A stretch of 64,000 bases of DNA, taken from Linderina pennispora. Taxonomy: Eukaryota; Kickxellomycota; Kickxellomycetes; Kickxellales; Kickxellaceae. The stretch spans positions 16,340-80,339 of the forward strand of contig NW_024468277.1 of NCBI RefSeq assembly GCF_002104995.1, written 5' to 3'. Shown piece by piece: positions 170-63,828 of this stretch; position 1 is the stretch's first letter; the number at the start of each line of letters is the position of its first letter. The position numbers were made by a program, and so were the translations under genes. Below the pieces are notes generated by a model. It saw nothing but the letters and a program-made list of their open reading frames with translations, made no database searches and was not told where the DNA came from.

Positions 170-338
170 GTGTTGCGTAGCTGGTGATGACCGCCATTAT
201 GATACCATAGAAATTATCGGGTCGACCGACAATGAGAGCAGCTCTCACGCTGAACCAATGGAGATATCCAGTGGAGATCTGTGACCACTGCAATAATAGC
301 TTTCCACCCCGGTTTCACCGATGAGGTCAGACACTGCA
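170..338 (+). repeat. Dispersed repeat A, copy 1
   Basis: This stretch of about 169 bp has a close match at 31391-31558 in the same orientation, roughly four fifths identical by eye. Both copies keep one short frame encoding MRAAL, LNQWRY and CDH motifs that ends at the same TGA, so the repeat probably derives from the coding end of an unidentified mobile element. Here it abuts the Fanzor relic directly. At the other locus it lies about 550 bp upstream of the second relic in the opposite relative orientation, so it is not an integral part of the Fanzor gene. Confidence 0.7.
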
Positions 339-340
339 TA

Positions 341-362
341 GCAGCAGCAGCAGCAGCAGCAG
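341..362 (+). repeat. (GCA)n microsatellite at the chimeric junction
   Basis: Seven tandem GCA units separate dispersed repeat A from the first Fanzor-like residues. In frame they encode poly-alanine. The second relic also has an alanine-rich stretch near the point where its catalytic domain was lost. Confidence 0.8.
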
Positions 363-1694
363 ACACTGTTGCAGCACTTAACAATGCATATGCATCAGCA
401 CCCCCAGTCTGTGCACACGACCCAGTCCAAAGGATCACACAATCTGTGTGGGATGTGTGGGGCCGGGTCGCAGATCTAACATCAAAGCCATTTAAGGCGC
501 ATGGTGATAGAAAATTCCACGGAATGGCGACAACAGATGGTGTAACGATATGCATTTTGTTGGAAGACAAGATACCCAAAGCTGATGGTGCCGTAGATGC
601 TGATGCTGCGGGAGGCGATGCTACGGCTGACTGTCGCTATATCCACCAGATCCCACAGCCAGAGCTGCAGAATCTGAAAGGCTGCTGTGTATTCATCGAT
701 CCAGGTCGGGGCGATTTGCTATACATGATGCACGAAAATAGCAGCAATGGGAAAGGGGGTGAAAAAATGCTCTACCGCTACACACGGCAGCAGCACAATA
801 AGGAACTCAAGCTGCGCCACTATGACAGGATTCGTTGGGATACAAAGGATCAAGTCCCAGAAGATGCTGTCCGCAGAGCAGAGGCTGAGCTTTCCAAGCA
901 CTGCTGCCAGACCCTTAGCCCGGTAAAAATTCCGTGCCTATGTTGCTGCCCGTGCATCTGTGCGGTGTGTCCTAGCACCGTTTTATGCCAGCACTGACAG
1001 CGCGAAGGTTACCAGAGCAGCAGCCCACCAAGTCAAACAAGCAGCACCAGAGGCGCTGGAAGGTCCATCCAGGTGTCAGTACCAGTCCCAAGGTGTACCC
1101 GCTTCACCGCAAGCTGCGCCTTGATTCATTCATGAACCAGGCCCGTGCAGACCACAGGCTTGCCGCAAAACCCCGGAGCAAGTTCGGTCCAGACCCAATG
1201 CTGGTCATGGGCAATTGGAGTGCGCCGATGGCCCGACACCATGCGTCGATTCGTGGCAAGGGATGGCGCGACAAGTTCAAGCACCATGGCTTTGAAGTCT
1301 ATCTGATCGACGAATTCCGGACATCGTCGATGTGCCCGTTCTGCTGCGAAAAGTCCCTGCAGACGTTCTGGCATGTTCCCAACCCGCGGCCTACTAGAGA
1401 TCGAAGAACCCAACTGTGAAGTGCCATGGCCTTCTCCGCTGTACAAGCGAGTCATGTAAGCGGGCCATGGCACAATACAGGCGAGCCTATTCGTCTCGGT
1501 TCTTGAACCGCGATCCCGCAGCAGTTCTAAACTTCAGACTCATTTTCCAGTCACTCTGTGATTCAGGCAGTATTCCTGAACGGTTCTGTCGTTCTACGGC
1601 CATTGCTGCCGATGCTTCTGGCACCACCCCTGCAACAAAGAGGCCGCGCAAGAGGCGTGCAGCAGCAGGCTATCAAGATGGGAAATGTCCATGA
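341..1694 (+). pseudogene. Fanzor (eukaryotic TnpB-like) nuclease, catalytic half, frame-broken
   Basis: Fanzors are RNA-guided DNA endonucleases of eukaryotic transposons related to bacterial TnpB. Three consecutive frames together give the C-terminal half. It contains the TDGV segment, RuvC-I as FIDPGRGDLLY (Asp codon 698-700), an arginine-rich RYTRQQHNKE helix, HRKLRLDSF, the KFG and GNWS motifs, RuvC-II as LIDEFRTS (Glu codon 1312-1314), a CPFC then CHGLLRC zinc finger, and RuvC-III as LNRDPAAVLNF (Asp codon 1512-1514). All three catalytic acids are present. The frame breaks near 925 (a five-A run), near 1085 and near 1395. The N-terminal half is missing: upstream lies a (CAG)n tract and dispersed repeat A. 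No intact start is visible, so this is a relic. The family assignment is firm; activity is very unlikely. Confidence 0.9.
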
Positions 1695-1819
1695 TCGCTA
1701 TTGCACTAACAGCCATCCGACACGTTCAAATGACCGGTTCACCGTGATGCTCTTATCGACGTGTCAACCCATGCTGACTACCAGCCGAGCTCGCATCGCA
1801 AGCAGAGTATTTCTAGTAT
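1660..1819 (+). ncRNA. Conserved Fanzor right end, candidate omega RNA region
   Basis: This block is nearly 90 percent identical by eye to the minus-strand block 29573-29740, although the two copies share almost no other retained coding sequence. It begins in the last codons of the nuclease and extends about 125 bp past its stop (1692-1694). Both copies end at CTAGTAT. Foldable elements are visible: GACACGT (1719-1725) pairs with ACGTGTC (1759-1765), CGGT/ACCG (1735-1738, 1741-1744) nests inside, and GCTCGC-ATC-GCAAGC follows at 1789-1803 (perfect in the other copy). In known Fanzors the guide RNA is transcribed from the 3' end of the gene into the element terminus, which fits this position. 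Transcription is inferred. Confidence 0.55.
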
Positions 1820-2172
1820 GGAACGATATCTTCTCAAAAAGTGACTGGGGGGAAGAAGGAAGGCTGGTCGTCTGTCTGGGCCTTTGTACGTATGCGTTTC
1901 GGCCTTGTCTATGGTGGAGCAGGGGGACTCCAGACCTCGAATGTCAGCAGGAGTGACTCGAGAGGTGACTAAATTCCGCTATCTCTACAGATCCTCATCA
2001 GAGCCTTCGTCTCGTGCTGAGGCGCTAGTAGGCTGCATGTTAGGAGCCTGGTCGTCGGTTATCTGCCACTCGGAATCGCCGGAGTTTGCTGCCGTCGGTT
2101 CGGCGCCGGAACAGCTCGGCGAGTCTTCTGACGCGTCTTGCAATCAAAGACTATACCAAATCAATATATTTC
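1820..2172 (-). other. Intergenic; orphan acidic frame downstream of phosphate transporter
   Basis: No complete gene. On the minus strand a frame of about 50 codons without its own ATG ends at a TAG (1985-1987). It encodes a Ser/Glu/Asp-rich tail ending in EGSDEDL, the composition of a protein C-terminus. It could be a small alternative last exon of the transporter, since a TTGCAAG acceptor-like site precedes it near 2137, but I found no convincing phase-matched donor. Confidence 0.3.
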
Positions 2173-4867
2173 CTAAAATCCAAGCAGCGACATGCATGCA
2201 TATCCAACCGAAATAATGATAAAGTAGGCCAGAACACTGGATGGAATACCAGCCTTGAAGAAGTCCATAGTGGTCAGATACGGGTTGCCCAGGGTATCCT
2301 CCAGCATAATGGCGTTCATGTTCGGGAACCCAGACACCGGCAGCCCCATAGCGCCCGAGGCCATCAGCGCAGCACCCATGACCAGCAGACGGCTGTGGGG
2401 CTCGGGCAGCCTGGCGCCGACCTCGGCAACAATCGGAAGGATGATCAGGGCGCCGACCGTGTGCGAGATGAACGTGCAGCACACGAGGATCAGCCCGCAG
2501 AATACGCACAGCACGGTGAAGACCGGGAAGCCATCGACCAGCTGCTCGATGTGGCTGGCCAGCTCGTGCAGCAGGCCGCTCGAATCAACAGCACGGCCCA
2601 GCGCAATTCCGCCCATGGCCAGGATCACAACGGTCCACAGGAAGTTGTTAAAGTCCTCCTTGCTCAGCACCTTGGGGAAGGCAAACAGGAGCACCAGCGG
2701 CAGAATTGCAATGATGCCCATATCGCCAAAGATACCCGAGAGACTCGATTGCATGCACCACAGTACGATGGTGCCGATCGAGACGATGCACACGTAGATC
2801 TGGCGCTTGTTCAGCTTCTCGGGCGTGAACCGCGTCTGGCGGATCGACGGCGTGGTGTGGTGCGGACGGTAGACGGCCAGCAGCAGCACCCAAATGGCCA
2901 GATTGCACAGAATACAGACAGGAATCGATACGGTAAACCATTGGAGCCACGACGGCGACGGCTTCATGGTGTTGAGCGCGATGATATTCTGCGGTGATGC
3001 AATGGGTGAGGCCATGCCGCCCACATTCGATGCCAGCGCAATGCCAATGATCAGACACGGAGCAAAGGTGCTGCCGTTGGGCAGCGTGCGCAGAATGGGC
3101 TTGATCAGGGAGAAGCACAGGACGGGCGCAGCGACATTGCTGATCCACATGCTGGCAAACGTGGCAACAAACATGTTGGCCAGCAGCACCAGCTTTGGGC
3201 TAGTGCCAGCCTTGGACAGGATCCACGACGCAATGATGCGCGCAATATCGTGCTTGCTCAGCGCGGCCGCCAGCGAGAACCCACCAAGCAGCAGCATGAT
3301 GACCGACGAGAACATGGCCGAGAACACCGCCTTGGATGCCTCACCTGCGTCCAGGTGGTGGTGCGACTTGGCTGGCGACCGCATGACGCCGAGCATCACG
3401 GTTAGGAACGGCACCAGCAGCGCAGTAACGTGCAGCGGCAGGGCCTCGGTGGCCCACAGCAGCGACACGTATATCAGCATGGCCCAGCACCGCTGCTGCT
3501 CCCGACCGTCAAACATCGGGATGGCCCACACAATGGCAAACACCGCCGTGCAGAAGGCAATGCGCAGGAGCTGCTTATTGGTGTTGGTCATGCCGCGTGG
3601 CTTCAGCGGCGTCGAAGTGATGTCACCCGTGTGGTCGAGCTCGGGTGACTGAACACCGACGGCATTGACCATGCGCTCGTTGGCAATCATGTCGCGCCAC
3701 ACCGTGTTGCGCTCCCACACGACCTCCTCGCGCAGGCACTTCTTCAGCTCCTTCAGCGCCTGGTCAATCGACGAAAAGTCCGAGGCCACGCCAAACACAA
3801 ACGCCAGCTGCTCCATGTGGTCGCGCAGTGCAGCCTGCGCTTGGGTCGTGAACGGGTATGCCTTGCGCACCGTGTCCTCCAGGTACGTGGAGCGCAGATC
3901 CGAATGGGTGATCTTGTCGTACTTTTTCGTGATCTTGCTGAACCCAGTGTAGTTGAGCTGCGCGTACGAGCGCAGGTCGTGCAGCAGAATAAATAGGTTG
4001 CGCGACTGGTTACGGATCTCGCGCCGAACGCCGTCGACGCCGCTCAGGCTGACCGTGCGCCGGTGCCCGACGCTGGCCCGCTGCTGCTCTGCTGCAGTCA
4101 CCAGATTGCTGCCTTCGCCATTGGCAAAGCTAGGCGTCCGCGTGTCGTCGTCGTGTTCGACCGGAATGTAGGCGTTGGTCACGTTCTCAGGAATCGTCGA
4201 ATCCAGGTCGATCGCCTCCTGCGCATCGGACAGCGACGATGCCGCCGCATTGGCCTGTGCGCCCAACGACGATCCGCCTTCGCTGTCGATCAGCTGCGGC
4301 TGCGTCGTGTGTCTGCCTCGCAGCAGCAATGCTCCAGTCGCTGACTCTGGATCCTCCATATCCACAGCTGACAGCTTGCGGAAGAAGCTGCCTGTCCGCT
4401 GGCGCTCGAATGGCACCGACAGCCTCAGCTGCTCTAGCTCCGATTCGACCTCGCTGGCCTTGCCCAGTAGCTCGCCCTCCTTGCGCCGATAAAAGCTCTC
4501 GATCTTGCTCAGCTCGCTGTCAAGCAGTGGCACAAAGGCTGCATATGCTTGGTTCTGGGGACCTAGCAGCGTCCGGCTCTCGTCGGTGCGCGGCGACTGT
4601 GTCTGTCCGCGCTTGGCGATGATGTCGCGCTCGATGATGTACAGATTCTTCTTCAAGCCCGAATAACTACAGGGCAGTCAGTTAGCGGTAGCCTATCGTG
4701 GATACCAGCGGTATGGTGGGGAGAGTACTGCTACAGCCTTCCCCCCACGGGTGGAGAACGAATGCCTGCGTCCTCTACTGGTGCTGGCATTGAACAAGAT
4801 ACTTACTCTATGTAGTACTGCGCCAGTCGGGCACAGCATTGAATTGCAATGCGCTCGAAAACTTCAT
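2173..4867 (-). CDS. SPX-domain low-affinity phosphate transporter (Pho87/90/91 type)
   Basis: This is a membrane phosphate permease of the SLC13/DASS fold with an N-terminal SPX domain that senses inositol pyrophosphates. Exon 1 (4807-4867) starts MKFSSALQFNAVPDW, the classic SPX start. A 140-bp GT-AG intron (4667-4806) joins it to YSGLKKNLYIIERD in exon 2 (2173-4666). The SPX three-helix region runs to about residue 340. Roughly twelve membrane segments follow from about residue 400, with the SNVGGMASPIASPQN substrate motif and the mirrored SHTVGALIILP motif. The length of about 850 residues is normal for the family. Oddity: exon 1 reads into a stop near 4811 unless one base is restored around 4821 (DWR followed by YYI is expected), so there is a one-base deletion or sequencing error. 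The vacuolar (Pho91) versus plasma-membrane (Pho87/90) subtype is not resolved. Confidence 0.93.
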
Positions 4868-23812: not shown

Positions 23813-24754
23813 TCACAGCTTCGGGATGGAGCCAAGCTTCATGGCGAATTTATCCAGCGATCTGATGCAATGTGCAGCAGTCAGATCCGGGTCCTCATGG
23901 AGTAAAAGGTGGCCCCGGCCTTGTGCCACAAAATGCTCGCAGTCCGGCATCGGCGCGATCAGGTCGCGGATAAACTCTGTAGTCACCTTGTCCGACTCGG
24001 ATCCAGTTAGGTACACGCACGGACACTGGATTCGCCACAGATTCCGACCGATAAACGGGGCACCGTAGGCGGTAGCAGCAAAGCCATCGGCCTCAGGACC
24101 TGGCAAGCACTTGAGCATGGACTGGCCATCCCCATGTATGAGGCCATGCTGAATGAACAGCCCAAGCATGCGCTTATTCCATGACTCTGTAAAGGGATGG
24201 TTTTCGAAATGGGCGTGCGCGCCCTCCATCGATTTCCACTGGAACCGCCGCTTGCGCACCACGGCAGCCAGTGACTCGCTCTGCTCTGGGGTGATTTCGG
24301 TCGGAGTCGCAGGCTCAACAAGGAAAAGACCAGCAAAGGTCAATGGCGACATAATCTCAGCCAGCTGCAAGTTCGCCGCTCCCCACGAATGGCCGATGCC
24401 AACCAGGTTCTTTCTGACGCCGAGCTGCCGCACAACTGCCAGGATGTCGCGTGCATAGTCGAACCACCGGGCATGGAGCGGTCCGCCGGGCATATCAGGG
24501 TTCAATGCAGCACTGTCGCCCTGGTTCCACCAGTCCATGGCGATTGCGCGGGTTACATGCCAGGAGCGCGTCGCCTGTGCGGAAAATATCTGCTCAAGAA
24601 CCGGCTCCCACAGCTCCTTGTGGAATCCATTCGCGTGCGTCAGGAGCAGGGTGATTCCATGACCAGTCGTGTCGGGAGCTGTGCTCTGGTAGACGTTGGC
24701 AGCGATTTTCTGGCCGGCACGTGCGCCATCGAATATGTGTCTAGTGTGCTTCAT
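23813..24754 (-). CDS. Alpha/beta hydrolase, Lpx1-like, possible peroxisomal
   Basis: This is an alpha/beta hydrolase-fold esterase or lipase of 313 residues. The oxyanion strand is LLLTHANGFHKELWEPVL (about 36-53). The nucleophile elbow is GIGHSWGA (Ser about residue 123). The catalytic His is in GRGHLLLHEDP near the C-terminus, and an acid lies around ESDK. The protein ends SIPKL, a weak type 1 peroxisomal signal (PKL). Yeast Lpx1, a peroxisomal lipase, has the same architecture. One exon, with a TATA box (TTTATA on the plus strand, 24900-24905) 150 bp upstream. A paralogue with broken frames lies at 62892-63828 in the opposite orientation. Substrate unknown. Confidence 0.85.
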   Translation of the reverse strand: MKHTRHIFDGARAGQKIAANVYQSTAPDTTGHGITLLLTHANGFHKELWEPVLEQIFSAQATRSWHVTRAIAMDWWNQGDSAALNPDMPGGPLHARWFDYARDILAVVRQLGVRKNLVGIGHSWGAANLQLAEIMSPLTFAGLFLVEPATPTEITPEQSESLAAVVRKRRFQWKSMEGAHAHFENHPFTESWNKRMLGLFIQHGLIHGDGQSMLKCLPGPEADGFAATAYGAPFIGRNLWRIQCPCVYLTGSESDKVTTEFIRDLIAPMPDCEHFVAQGRGHLLLHEDPDLTAAHCIRSLDKFAMKLGSIPKL

Positions 24755-29572: not shown

Positions 29573-29740
29573 ATACTAGAATTGCTCTGCTCGCGATGCG
29601 AGCTCGGCTGCTAATCAGCATAGGTTGGCACGTCGATAAGAGCATCACGGCGAACCGGTCATTTGAACGTGTCGGATGGTTGTTGGTGCAATGGCGGTTA
29701 TGGACATCTCCCACCTTGATGGTCTGCTGCAGCAGCCGAT
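29573..29740 (-). ncRNA. Conserved Fanzor right end, copy 2 (candidate omega RNA)
   Basis: This is the minus-strand counterpart of 1660-1819, ending at the same CTAGTAT terminus (29573-29579 on the plus strand as ATACTAG). It contains a perfect hairpin GCTCGC-GAT-GCGAGC at 29589-29603, while relic 1 has one mismatch there. The differences between copies are mostly transitions. Conservation after the coding sequence has been deleted suggests this end carries the functional or most recently shared part of the element. Confidence 0.5.
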
Positions 29741-30840
29741 GCACCTGCAAGTGAATCAGCCGCTACTGCTGCAGTTGCAACAGTGGCCTCTGTTGCATCC
29801 GATGGCATCTTCGCTGCTTCGTGTGCAGCCTTCTTGGCCAAGTTTTCGCCCTTTTCTGCTGCTTTCCTTGCCTCTGTTGCTGCCCTCTTTGCTGCGTTGG
29901 TCTTGGTAACCTGCTCACGTGTTTTCGAAATAAACACCTGCTTGATTATTTGCTTGTTTAAGCGCACATGGCCTGGGATCCATGATGTTCGCAGAGGCAA
30001 GCATTGGGGGGAGACTTGCCAAGCTGCTCATTCTCGATAAGCTGGCATAGGCGAATATATGCATGCAGATGCTTAAGTGGATTTACCTTGGCATCATAGT
30101 ATCGCCTGTCTTTGGCAAATCTGTACTTGGCATCATAGGCATTAAGGACTGGTGCCAGCTTGTTGTAGATTGCAAGCATCGGTGGGGTGAGCACACTGAG
30201 ATCAGGGTGCCTAGAGGCAACTGCCTGGCGGAGCTTCTGTGCAGGCGTATAAATATACACTTGACATGCATTATTGAACTCAGCCTTGGACACATTGCCA
30301 ATTTTACTGTGCAGTGTGTTTTTGCGGCTGCGAATATCAATCAATTTGGCCAGAATCCGCTGTAGGCAGGTGCCATAGTGCAACACAATGTTGTTCTTGT
30401 ATGCTGTCATCAGCTCGGTATCCACGTATGTCGCTACCTGATTCATTTCGCGTATGCCATGTAGCTCAATATCGCCATTATGTAATAGACAATCATAAAT
30501 ATGGTATCTAACTACATCACCGAAATCTGCGCTCGACAGTTCTGACTTGTCCTTCCGGTTGACGAAATCCTCGGCAGATATGACAGTCTTCGCCTTCAGG
30601 TTGTGGTATATGAATAAATAAATGAAACGAAAAAAACCCCTTTTTCACAAATGTTGCAGGGTCAAAAGCATCATCATCAGCTAGTTGATGGAGTAATATC
30701 CATCGTGCAAGCATGTATGTATGCTCTTTGATGATATTGACGCTGTGTACAAATTGCTCTAGGCGAGGCAACATAGAATCACGGAAGCCAATACCACCAA
30801 GTGATTTCTTTATGGCAGTAGTGCTGCGGGTAATATTCAT
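29573..30840 (-). pseudogene. Fanzor nuclease relic 2: N-terminal half joined to 3' end, catalytic core deleted
   Basis: From ATG 30840 the minus strand gives a typical Fanzor N-terminus: VHSVNIIKEHTYMLARWILL, then NQVATYVDTELMTAYKNNIVLHYG. After that come ACQVYIYTPAQKLRQAV and PLRTSWIPGHVRLNKQIIKQVF with an alanine/lysine-rich helix. At about 29740 it jumps straight into the block shared with relic 1 (1660-1819), so the RuvC-I to RuvC-III region is gone. The frame is broken near 30640 (around an A-run and C-run), again between 30000 and 29958, and near 29750. It cannot encode an active nuclease. Together with relic 1 the two copies cover nearly all of the protein. Confidence 0.85.
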
Positions 30841-31390
30841 TTGAGAAATTCAATATGCAAGAAGAGAAATGATGCTGTTCAGTTTTGCTTTATTGCGTAT
30901 GCATAGCATCAAGAACTTTTTATTAAAGATTTTCTGGCTTGCATGGTTTTGGGGGCCCTTAGCACTGATACAGTCTCTTGAATCAGTCTATACATACTGG
31001 GTCCGTTGTGACCCAAATACTATCGCTTACGCATGTTCATAAGACAAATTAATTTATAAAATAAACCCACAAATATTGCATGACCGCTAGAAGAGCTATA
31101 TGGCCTTATTCAATAGTGTCGCGACCCTATTTAAAGGTCACGAGCTTCGTCTACTCGCCCAGGCACTAATCAATTGATAGGGACAGTTGATATTATTAAA
31201 CAAGAAGAGATGATTCCTCCCGGGTCACTCCTGGAGTGATCCGGTGTCTATTTTATAGCCTTAACTATGTGGCCTCGCCTAGGGTGATGAATCAGTCTCA
31301 TCATCTGTGATCGGCTGAGTCGCATAAGCATTGGCTTTGAGTGACTGTGGTGTGATCACCACAATAGGTGCTCATAGATAAATATCCTAA
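30841..31390. other. Non-coding AT-rich mobile-element debris with palindromes
   Basis: This is the upstream flank of Fanzor relic 2, without a recognisable gene. Two hairpins stand out. The first is an 11-bp arm with a 1-base centre at 31221-31243 (GGTCACTCC / GGAGTGATCC core, one G-T pair). The second is a 7-bp arm TGTGGTG / CACCACA with a TGAT loop at 31346-31363. They may be remnants of element ends or hairpin transcripts. Confidence 0.45.
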
Positions 31391-31558
31391 GTGTTGCGCA
31401 GCCGGTGATGACCACCATGATGGCGCCATGGAAGTTATCAGGCCGACCGAAAATGAGAGCAGCTCTTGCGCTGAACCAATGGAGATATCTAGTAGAGACC
31501 TGTGACCACTACAATAACAACTTGTCACCCTGGTTTCACCGATGAGGTCAAATACCGC
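31391..31558 (+). repeat. Dispersed repeat A, copy 2
   Basis: This is the same-orientation match to 170-338. It starts GTGTTGCGCAG and ends just after GATGAGGTCA. Both copies preserve the short reading frame with MRAAL, LNQWRY and CDH. Downstream of this copy, about 170 bp of AT-rich sequence leads to the stop of the SLP1-like gene. Confidence 0.7.
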
Positions 31559-31732
31559 ACAAGATCAAAAAGGAGTTTACGGAGCAAGCCACCCAAACTC
31601 GCTTTGAGGTTTACGAGTTTTATCTTTTAACCAATTTAAAAGGTTCTAGCGGACGGTCGGACACTTTTTGGACTATAAAATCTTATATATAGGCAAAGAT
31701 TATAAAGATTATCTAGTAATGTCGCGTGTATG

Positions 31733-62891: not shown

Positions 62892-63828
62892 ATGAATGTT
62901 GCAGGCGTGTGTTTGACGGTGCGCGCAAGGGCCAGCGGATCGTTGCAAATGTTTACCAGTCCTCGACGCCCAAGCCCTCGGGCTACTCCATGACCTTGCT
63001 CTTATCCCACGCCAACGGGTTCCACAAGGAGCTCTGGGAGCCGGTCCTTGAGCAGCTCTTCTCCGCCCAATCGTCGCGGCCCTGGAGCATCAGCCAGGCA
63101 GTCGCGATCGATTCGTACAACCACGGAGACAGCGCCGTTCTGAACCGCGAGTCAGTTGCGATTGAGGAGTTCTCGACCTGGTTCAACAATGCCAGCGACA
63201 TCCTGGCAGTTGTGCGGCAGCTGGGCGTGCGCCAGAACGTAATTGGCATTGGCCACTCGTGGGTGCAGCATCGATGCTTTTGGCGGAGGAAATCTCACCG
63301 CTGACGTTCTCGGGCCTGGTTATTGCCGACCCGGTTCTGTTTAACCAGGTCGAGCTAAACCGCAATTCGGCGATCGTGAAGATGACCATGGGGCGGCGGG
63401 CGGAGTGGAAAGACGAGGAGGCTGCGCGCAAGTACTTTGAGCCGCACCCGTTCTTCAAGATCTGGGATAAGCGCATTCTCGACCTGCACATCAAGCACGG
63501 CCTAGAGAGGTCGGCGGGAAGCTTGTGCTGAAGTGCCGGCCGATTAACGAGGCTGGGGTGTTCGCAGGCGCTATGATTGCATCGCCATATGCAACCTGGA
63601 ATATCTGGAAGGTGCAGTGCCCGACCGTGTTCTTGACTGGCGAGACATCACAGCCGTCGCCGGGAGCATATTCGCAGAGTCATCAAGCCAATTAACGACT
63701 GCGAGCACTATGTCATGAAGGGCAGAGGCCATTTGCTGCTGCATGAGGATCCCGATCAGACTGCGCAGTATTTTGCAAAGTTCTTTGACGGCTTCGCCAC
63801 GAAGCTGAGCCCCAAGGCTAACCTCTAG
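62892..63828 (+). pseudogene. Alpha/beta hydrolase paralogue, frame-broken
   Basis: This is a paralogue of the hydrolase at 23813-24754, sharing RVFDGARKGQRIVANVYQS, LLLSHANGFHKELWEPVLEQLFSAQ, SDILAVVRQLGVRQNVIGIGHSW, SPLTFSGLVIADP, HPFFKIWDKRILDLHIKHGL and NDCEHYVMKGRGHLLLHEDPDQT. The Ser and His of the triad are present. The frame changes near 62905, 63262, 63510 and 63650. The one at 63262 falls in a G-run just after the nucleophile elbow, where the paralogue has one more G. The frame ends SPKANL; KANL is the peroxisomal signal of human catalase. It is either a decaying duplicate or an intact gene with base-calling errors. Its own TATA box is retained. Confidence 0.75.

Follow-up and report, generated by a model that had tools for sequence, protein, structure and literature searches.

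The right end of a Fanzor1-carrying Helitron in Linderina pennispora is a likely source of omega RNA

The window, a stretch of 64,000 nucleotides from the fungus Linderina pennispora, is part of contig C145 (the genome searched comprises 26.17 Mb in 222 contigs) and contains two relics of one mobile element together with a phosphate-transporter gene (Table 1). Relic 1 aligns by blastn with the full genomic copy L050 over 341-624 and 601-1817 at about 91% identity. Relic 2, compared with L050 in the same way, consists of element positions 1-332, an insert of about 245 bp, positions 327-1725, a deletion, and positions 3188-3343. The block 1658-1819 of relic 1 matches 29573-29734 (minus strand) of relic 2 at 89% over 162 nt without gaps. 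A preliminary description of this DNA had regarded the block as the best-conserved part of the two relics; the match is real, but it mostly reflects complementary deletions, since two different deletions left the relics overlapping mainly in the right end, hence the impression of special conservation. As that description had also proposed, the block lies mostly 3' of the stop codon (about 122 nt of element follow the stop of frame 1416-1694) and constitutes a Fanzor right end. The element is a Fanzor1 element with a high copy number in the genome. Contig C145 seemingly duplicates part of contig C1 near 2.67-2.70 Mb: the transporter is 99% identical to a protein probably encoded on C1, and relic 2 shares its flank with copy L064. 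The assembly would therefore hold both haplotypes or duplicates. The window also contains an inverted pair of 85 nt (24382-24466 and 63179-63263, 84% identical).

Table 1 Features of the two relics and their surroundings, in window coordinates
Feature	Position	Strand	Evidence
Element 5'-region piece (142-303), inverted relative to relic 1	170-331	-	86% opposite-strand match
Fanzor1 pseudogene	281-1694	+	Open pieces 281-997, 985-1419 and 1416-1694 with shifted frames (ORF list)
Relic 1, 3' part of the Fanzor1-carrying Helitron (element 1702-3343)	341-1816	+	blastn to L050
Last ~105 nt of the element (3241-3343): candidate omega RNA scaffold and Helitron 3' end	1714-1816	+	Substitution rates
GACACGT/ACGTGTC stem around CGGTTCACCG; best omega RNA candidate	1719-1765	+	Sequence; no counterpart in the sequenced RepHel end
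GACACGT / ACGTGTC arms	1719-1725 / 1759-1765	+	Read in sequence
CGGTTCACCG	1735-1744	+	Read in sequence; enclosed by the GACACGT/ACGTGTC stem
GCTCGCATCGCAAGC (terminal hairpin)	1789-1803	+	Read in sequence
Helitron 3' terminal hairpin	1789-1803	+	Same hairpin, loop and 9-nt spacing in RepHel right ends
CTAGTAT	1813-1819	+	Read in sequence
CTAG, element 3' end	1813-1816	+	Conservation ends at CTAG-TA in the compared right ends
Target-site TA	1817-1818	+	TA in 38/38 right ends not chosen for TA
Predicted guide stretch of relic 1	1819-1834	+	Flanks past TA all differ (38 freely chosen ends, 15 nt)
Phosphate-transporter gene	2176-4656		99% identical to a Linderina pennispora protein
Relic 2	29576-31699	-	Left end 31699, CTAG 29576-29579; blastn and ends read

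Positions 1640-1830 gave at least 62 matching pieces in the genome (40 of 244 candidates scored), the C-terminal Fanzor piece 985-1419 at least 149 matches (150 of 158 candidates scored), and a 30-nt pattern of the element end 96 exact copies genome-wide, with none for the reversed control. The flanks of several right ends recur beside a right end on a different contig, some copies being allelic or duplicated, so the copy numbers overcount insertions. The full copy L050 measures 3343 nt (about 3.34 kb) from TCTTTACC to CTAG. A single frame from the first methionine encodes 861 aa in L050, 870 aa in L037 and 876 aa in L035, the stop codon lying about 120-150 nt before the element end, and stop-free stretches of 860-894 aa occur at nine of the 985-1419 matches. 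An internal deletion of about element positions 1726-2829 is common to L032, L039, L045, L046 and L048 (five of 20 long loci), and relics 1 and 2 likewise break near 1702-1725, within a GCAGCAG stretch; this break region is possibly a deletion hot spot or the mark of a non-autonomous subfamily. Replacement of one element by another was considered for a site with different copies on two contigs; the elements and their flanks diverge alike (92.6-100%), so that allelic divergence is enough and replacement is not needed.

The encoded protein finds its best solved relative in Parasitella Fanzor1 (PpFz1, PDB ID: 9cf0; E 4.3e-85), with further matches to Fanzor1 from Spizellomyces (SpuFz1, E 1.3e-36) and Guillardia (E 1.6e-5). 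The Fanzor1 motif D...[TS][TS]xx-C4...RD is present as DPG, DEFRTSS with the C4 finger, and NRD, aligned with the solved Fanzor1 proteins. The magnesium ligands reported for SpuFz1 are D383, N385, E541 and D606; in the alignment with SpuFz1, the positions of the catalytic D, E and D are kept in the L. pennispora protein, and N385 corresponds to G. Relatives of residues 500-830 number 113; identity reaches 48% at best, and many of them belong to Coemansia and Mucorales. The PF07282 profile gave no match in the L. pennispora genome at E 1e-3; as copies are present, it is a poor probe for these Fanzors. Pooled over 10 distinct open copies (286 codons), pN/pS equals 0.24, a value somewhat lowered by the choice of open copies, and the nuclease is under purifying selection.

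These frames bear on the explanation that nothing functional is left, both window copies being dead relics that resemble each other through recent common descent only. The frameshifts and truncation of relic 1, the missing nuclease half of relic 2, and a block that does not vary less than fourfold sites all agree with decay; yet the nine stop-free copies and the low pN/pS imply that the family was recently functional, so the explanation is true of the two copies rather than of the family, and as an account of the right end it is improbable. The protein of relic 1 is broken, and this copy could at most give an RNA.

The element is a Helitron carrying a Fanzor1 nuclease, and its Helitron-type nature was missed in the preliminary description. 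Its termini are those of canonical Helitrons, 5'-TC (TCTTTACC) and CTAG-3', and the hairpin GCTCGC-ATC-GCGAGC lies 9 nt 5' of CTAG, where Helitrons have theirs (about 10-12 nt from the 3' end); in relic 1 this hairpin contains one C-A mismatch (1792/1800). No terminal inverted repeats were found, the inverted comparison giving matches at 5 of 30 end positions and, at best, eight subterminal bases (E 0.11). The string CTAGTAT, described earlier as the identical end of both relics, is indeed present, but the element stops at CTAG, TA belongs to the target site, and the third T shared after CTAGTA is chance.

The PF14214 profile (Helitron_like_N) gave 13 matches, seven of them main matches and six pieces of the domain start. 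Among the 40 of 167 candidates scored, a left end of the Fanzor element lies upstream of six of the seven RepHel loci, in the same orientation and at a distance of 1.7-1.9 kb (C212, C171, C157 twice, C112 and C2, the exception being C68); one RepHel left end is identical by blastn to that of L050 over the first 77 nt and unrelated beyond. Eight RepHel right ends were found, of the form GCTTGC-ATY-GCAAGC followed by 9 nt and CTAG. They share the hairpin form, the ATC/ATT loop and the 9-nt spacing to CTAG with the Fanzor-type right ends. The two kinds differ at the fourth base pair of the hairpin (T-A or C-G), where both partners have changed, within the Helitron terminator. The hairpin 1789-1803 and CTAG are thus explained without an omega RNA, as Helitron 3'-end features that are the same in RepHel. 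The sequenced RepHel right end (L061) contains a perfect 11-bp inverted repeat, and its upstream inverted repeats comprise GTGTGACAAAC-AGC-GTTTGTCACAC as well as CTAGCAGTCTC with GAGACTGCTAG, an outer pair around the terminal hairpin.

All eight RepHel right ends adjoin a Fanzor-type left end. Five junctions carry this left end exactly (C212, C23, C157:1115020, C171 and C2), the left end at C1 is without its first three bases, and those at C112 and C157:14422 are without the first four, with one mismatch in 12. A Fanzor match follows by coordinates at five of the eight (C212, C23, C157 twice and C1), C171 runs to the contig edge, and C2 and C112 are without a Fanzor match.

At all 57 distinct right ends CTAG is followed by TA; for 19 of them the search pattern itself included TA as well as the exact hairpin, and the other 38 were freely chosen. 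The freely chosen ends show TA in 38 of 38 cases and then 38 distinct 15-mers, i.e., a variable flank directly past a fixed end, a feature of OMEGA systems, and the flank past the fixed TA is as distinct as a guide would be. Over 52 distinct flanks, the positions past TA carry 0.01-0.61 bit, with a lean to A and T. On the left side, A precedes TC in 12 of the 13 Fanzor-type ends that were verified (T in L037) and in all six of RepHel, and T or C occupies the position before it in 10 of 13 and six of six, respectively. The insertion site is mostly (T/C)A-TA, with the hyphen marking the point of insertion. The counts leave aside the left ends of L085, L091 and L092 (3/10, TTTACC missing), those of L034, L036 and L048, with a degraded or ambiguous start, and the bare TCTTTACC strings of L036, L038, L045 and L046, for which a 61-nt left-end search gave no confirmation (those of L038 and L045 are preceded by G). 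L047 and L087 represent one site on two contigs. The left flanks of L047, L049, L086, L087, L089 and L082 have extra TCTTTA-like units just before the left end, L087 having one more than L047 at what is apparently the same site.

Joined flanks revealed no clean empty site among L046, L047, L049 and L037: the L046 and L047 sites are filled on both contigs, and the joined flanks of L049 gave no continuous match. A candidate empty site for L037 on contig C24 (a continuous 81% match) is in addition short of 37 bp of flank, with a GTCAC repeat at the borders of the missing part; this allele is therefore a deletion or a larger insertion.

The resemblance of (T/C)A-TA to the CATA recognized by SpuFz1 as TAM is suggestive; in that system CA stands before the left end and TA duplications are presumed (PMC10432273; PMC3627910). 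Canonical Helitrons are described as requiring only A-T (PMC4778049). The (T/C)A preference may be the Helitron's own rather than a TAM, because RepHel left flanks show the same.

Variation along the element was measured as substitutions relative to L050 in two sets of copies, 19 selected for similarity of the right end and nine for similarity of the protein. In this order, the values are 2.5% and 2.8% for element positions 3241-3300, 1.3% and 3.8% for 3301-3344, 9.4% and 8.2% for the 50 nt before the last ~105 nt, and 12.7% and 12.2% for the ORF tail; the 5' region shows 8.0% (right-end-picked copies only) and the RuvC coding part 3.3-3.9%. The last ~105 nt are thus less variable than the neighbouring non-coding DNA. 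Constraint on the block is not demonstrated, as it is as variable as fourfold sites among the 10 open copies (10 of 100 versus 9 of 120 sites, p 0.63).

Neither foldability, which the preliminary description had brought forward for an omega RNA, nor covariation backs an RNA. Its nested inverted repeats do have their arms where it placed them, but they are within chance: when 1660-1819 is shuffled with its dinucleotides preserved, 97 of 300 shuffles contain a perfect inverted repeat of at least 7 bp. The MFE z-scores of L050 (-0.84 for the last 152 nt, -1.56 for 110 and -2.14 for 75) are ordinary compared with 150-nt windows of the same element (mean -0.41, sd 1.1). Covariation in the block is absent from both the RNAalifold term (~0) and our own pair counts, which cover 52 of 57 rows (L065, L073, L077, L079 and L081, with a partial block only, were omitted). 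Over these 52 mostly decayed copies, the cells of the 7-bp stem comprise 342 unchanged, seven one-sided, one two-sided and 14 broken. Uncompensated loss of the stems had been named beforehand as evidence against an RNA, and it is partly seen: 10 of the 52 copies are without the full 7-bp stem, which is pairable in the other 42, and one cell is compensated. The terminal hairpin can pair in 48 of 52 copies; if the 14 rows selected for its exact sequence are set aside, the figure is 34 of 38. Because most copies are decayed, broken stems are compatible with an omega RNA in the intact ones. Among the 10 open copies, the stem is kept beside the longest open frames (L006, L008, L021, L052, L058 and L060) and lost in two of the remaining four (L057 and L059). 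The one Rfam match scores 13.4 bits, where the gathering score is 39; it lies outside the block and is due to chance.

The lack of covariation and of unusual folding would suit an explanation in which the whole conserved end is only a Helitron 3' terminus and the 1719-1765 stem a further part of the transposition apparatus, with no omega RNA; the upstream inverted repeats of the sequenced RepHel end would fit it as well. Against this, L065 carries no more of the element than its final 40 nt before TA, so 40 nt may suffice as a terminus (a later deletion is also possible), the nuclease is under selection, and the Fanzors studied so far are described as using a right-end RNA (PMC10432273). A purely Helitron role of the end is unlikely, though less so than complete loss of function.

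The analysis establishes the type of element, its ends and target preference, the linkage to RepHel and the selection on the nuclease; omega RNA, guide start, TAM and homing are inferred. We consider it fairly probable that the right terminus of this Fanzor1-carrying Helitron combines a terminator with an omega RNA scaffold and serves homing. The last ~40 nt (hairpin and CTAG) most likely act as rolling-circle terminator, while the ~60 nt before them, together with the terminator, most likely form the scaffold of an omega RNA that intact copies would make out of the Fanzor transcript's 3' end. The omega RNA proposed in the preliminary description is, by position, likely to come from this right end: in characterised Fanzors the omega RNA originates at the right end and the flank supplies the guide (PMC10432273; PMC10711439), and the same therefore probably holds here, but the terminal hairpin and CTAG that were counted toward it are Helitron features. 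The scaffold of Fanzor1 RNAs can include bases that are fixed in the target (PMC10432273; PMC10711439). Here the fixed TA would be absorbed in this way, and the guide would start after it (at 1819 in relic 1). In that case every insertion would encode a guide directed at the unoccupied form of its site, (T/C)A-TA plus guide; the Fanzor might cut the uninserted homologue, and repair would copy the element there, a use of cleavage that Saito et al. bring up in a general way. The head-to-tail RepHel-Fanzor junctions would fit read-through or circle intermediates.

More tentatively, and with the balance of probability somewhat against it, one sequence might play both roles, as rolling-circle terminator in DNA and as 3' scaffold of the omega RNA. 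RepHel and Fanzor would then form a linked head-to-tail composite in which the Helitron target equals the TAM and insertions arm guides against their own empty allele. If true, this would amount to a eukaryotic peel-and-paste plus cut-and-copy cycle. The family makes the homing idea directly testable in one fungus: it offers open, selected Fanzor frames, a head-to-tail RepHel partner, natural flanks that differ among dozens of copies, and a TAM prediction.

No paper on the Linderina Fanzor-Helitron family was found in the accessible literature, with subscription journals mostly outside its coverage; Fanzor1 on Helitrons is already known from Chlamydomonas (PMC3627910). The best solved relative, the Fanzor1 of Parasitella parasitica, was compared at the level of the protein. 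Spu-1 of Spizellomyces punctatus, with SpuFz1, likewise encodes a Fanzor1, has its candidate RNA between the stop codon and the right end, uses a TAM (CATA) resembling (T/C)A-TA and includes many copies without the gene; it differs in having terminal inverted repeats, no known transposase in the published account, and a sequenced omega RNA (PMC10432273). Helraiser/Helibat1 shares TC and CTAG ends, a hairpin placed about 11 nt inside the 3' terminus and, apparently, insertion at A-T, but is described without a Fanzor; its hairpin, 11 nt from CTAG, is the terminator, and bypass transduces flanking DNA, a read-through of the 3' end resembling that considered here (PMC4778049). A close parallel is found in CRe-1, CRe-2 and CRe-3 of Chlamydomonas reinhardtii, non-autonomous Helitron2 elements that likewise carry Fanzor1 between Helitron ends and have 5'-truncated and internally deleted copies retaining the 3' end (PMC3627910). 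They are of the Helitron2 type, with a TTTT target preference and often duplications of 7-19 bp (PMC3627910), whereas the Linderina element has canonical TC/CTAG ends, A-TA sites, and a RepHel partner arranged head to tail with the same left end.
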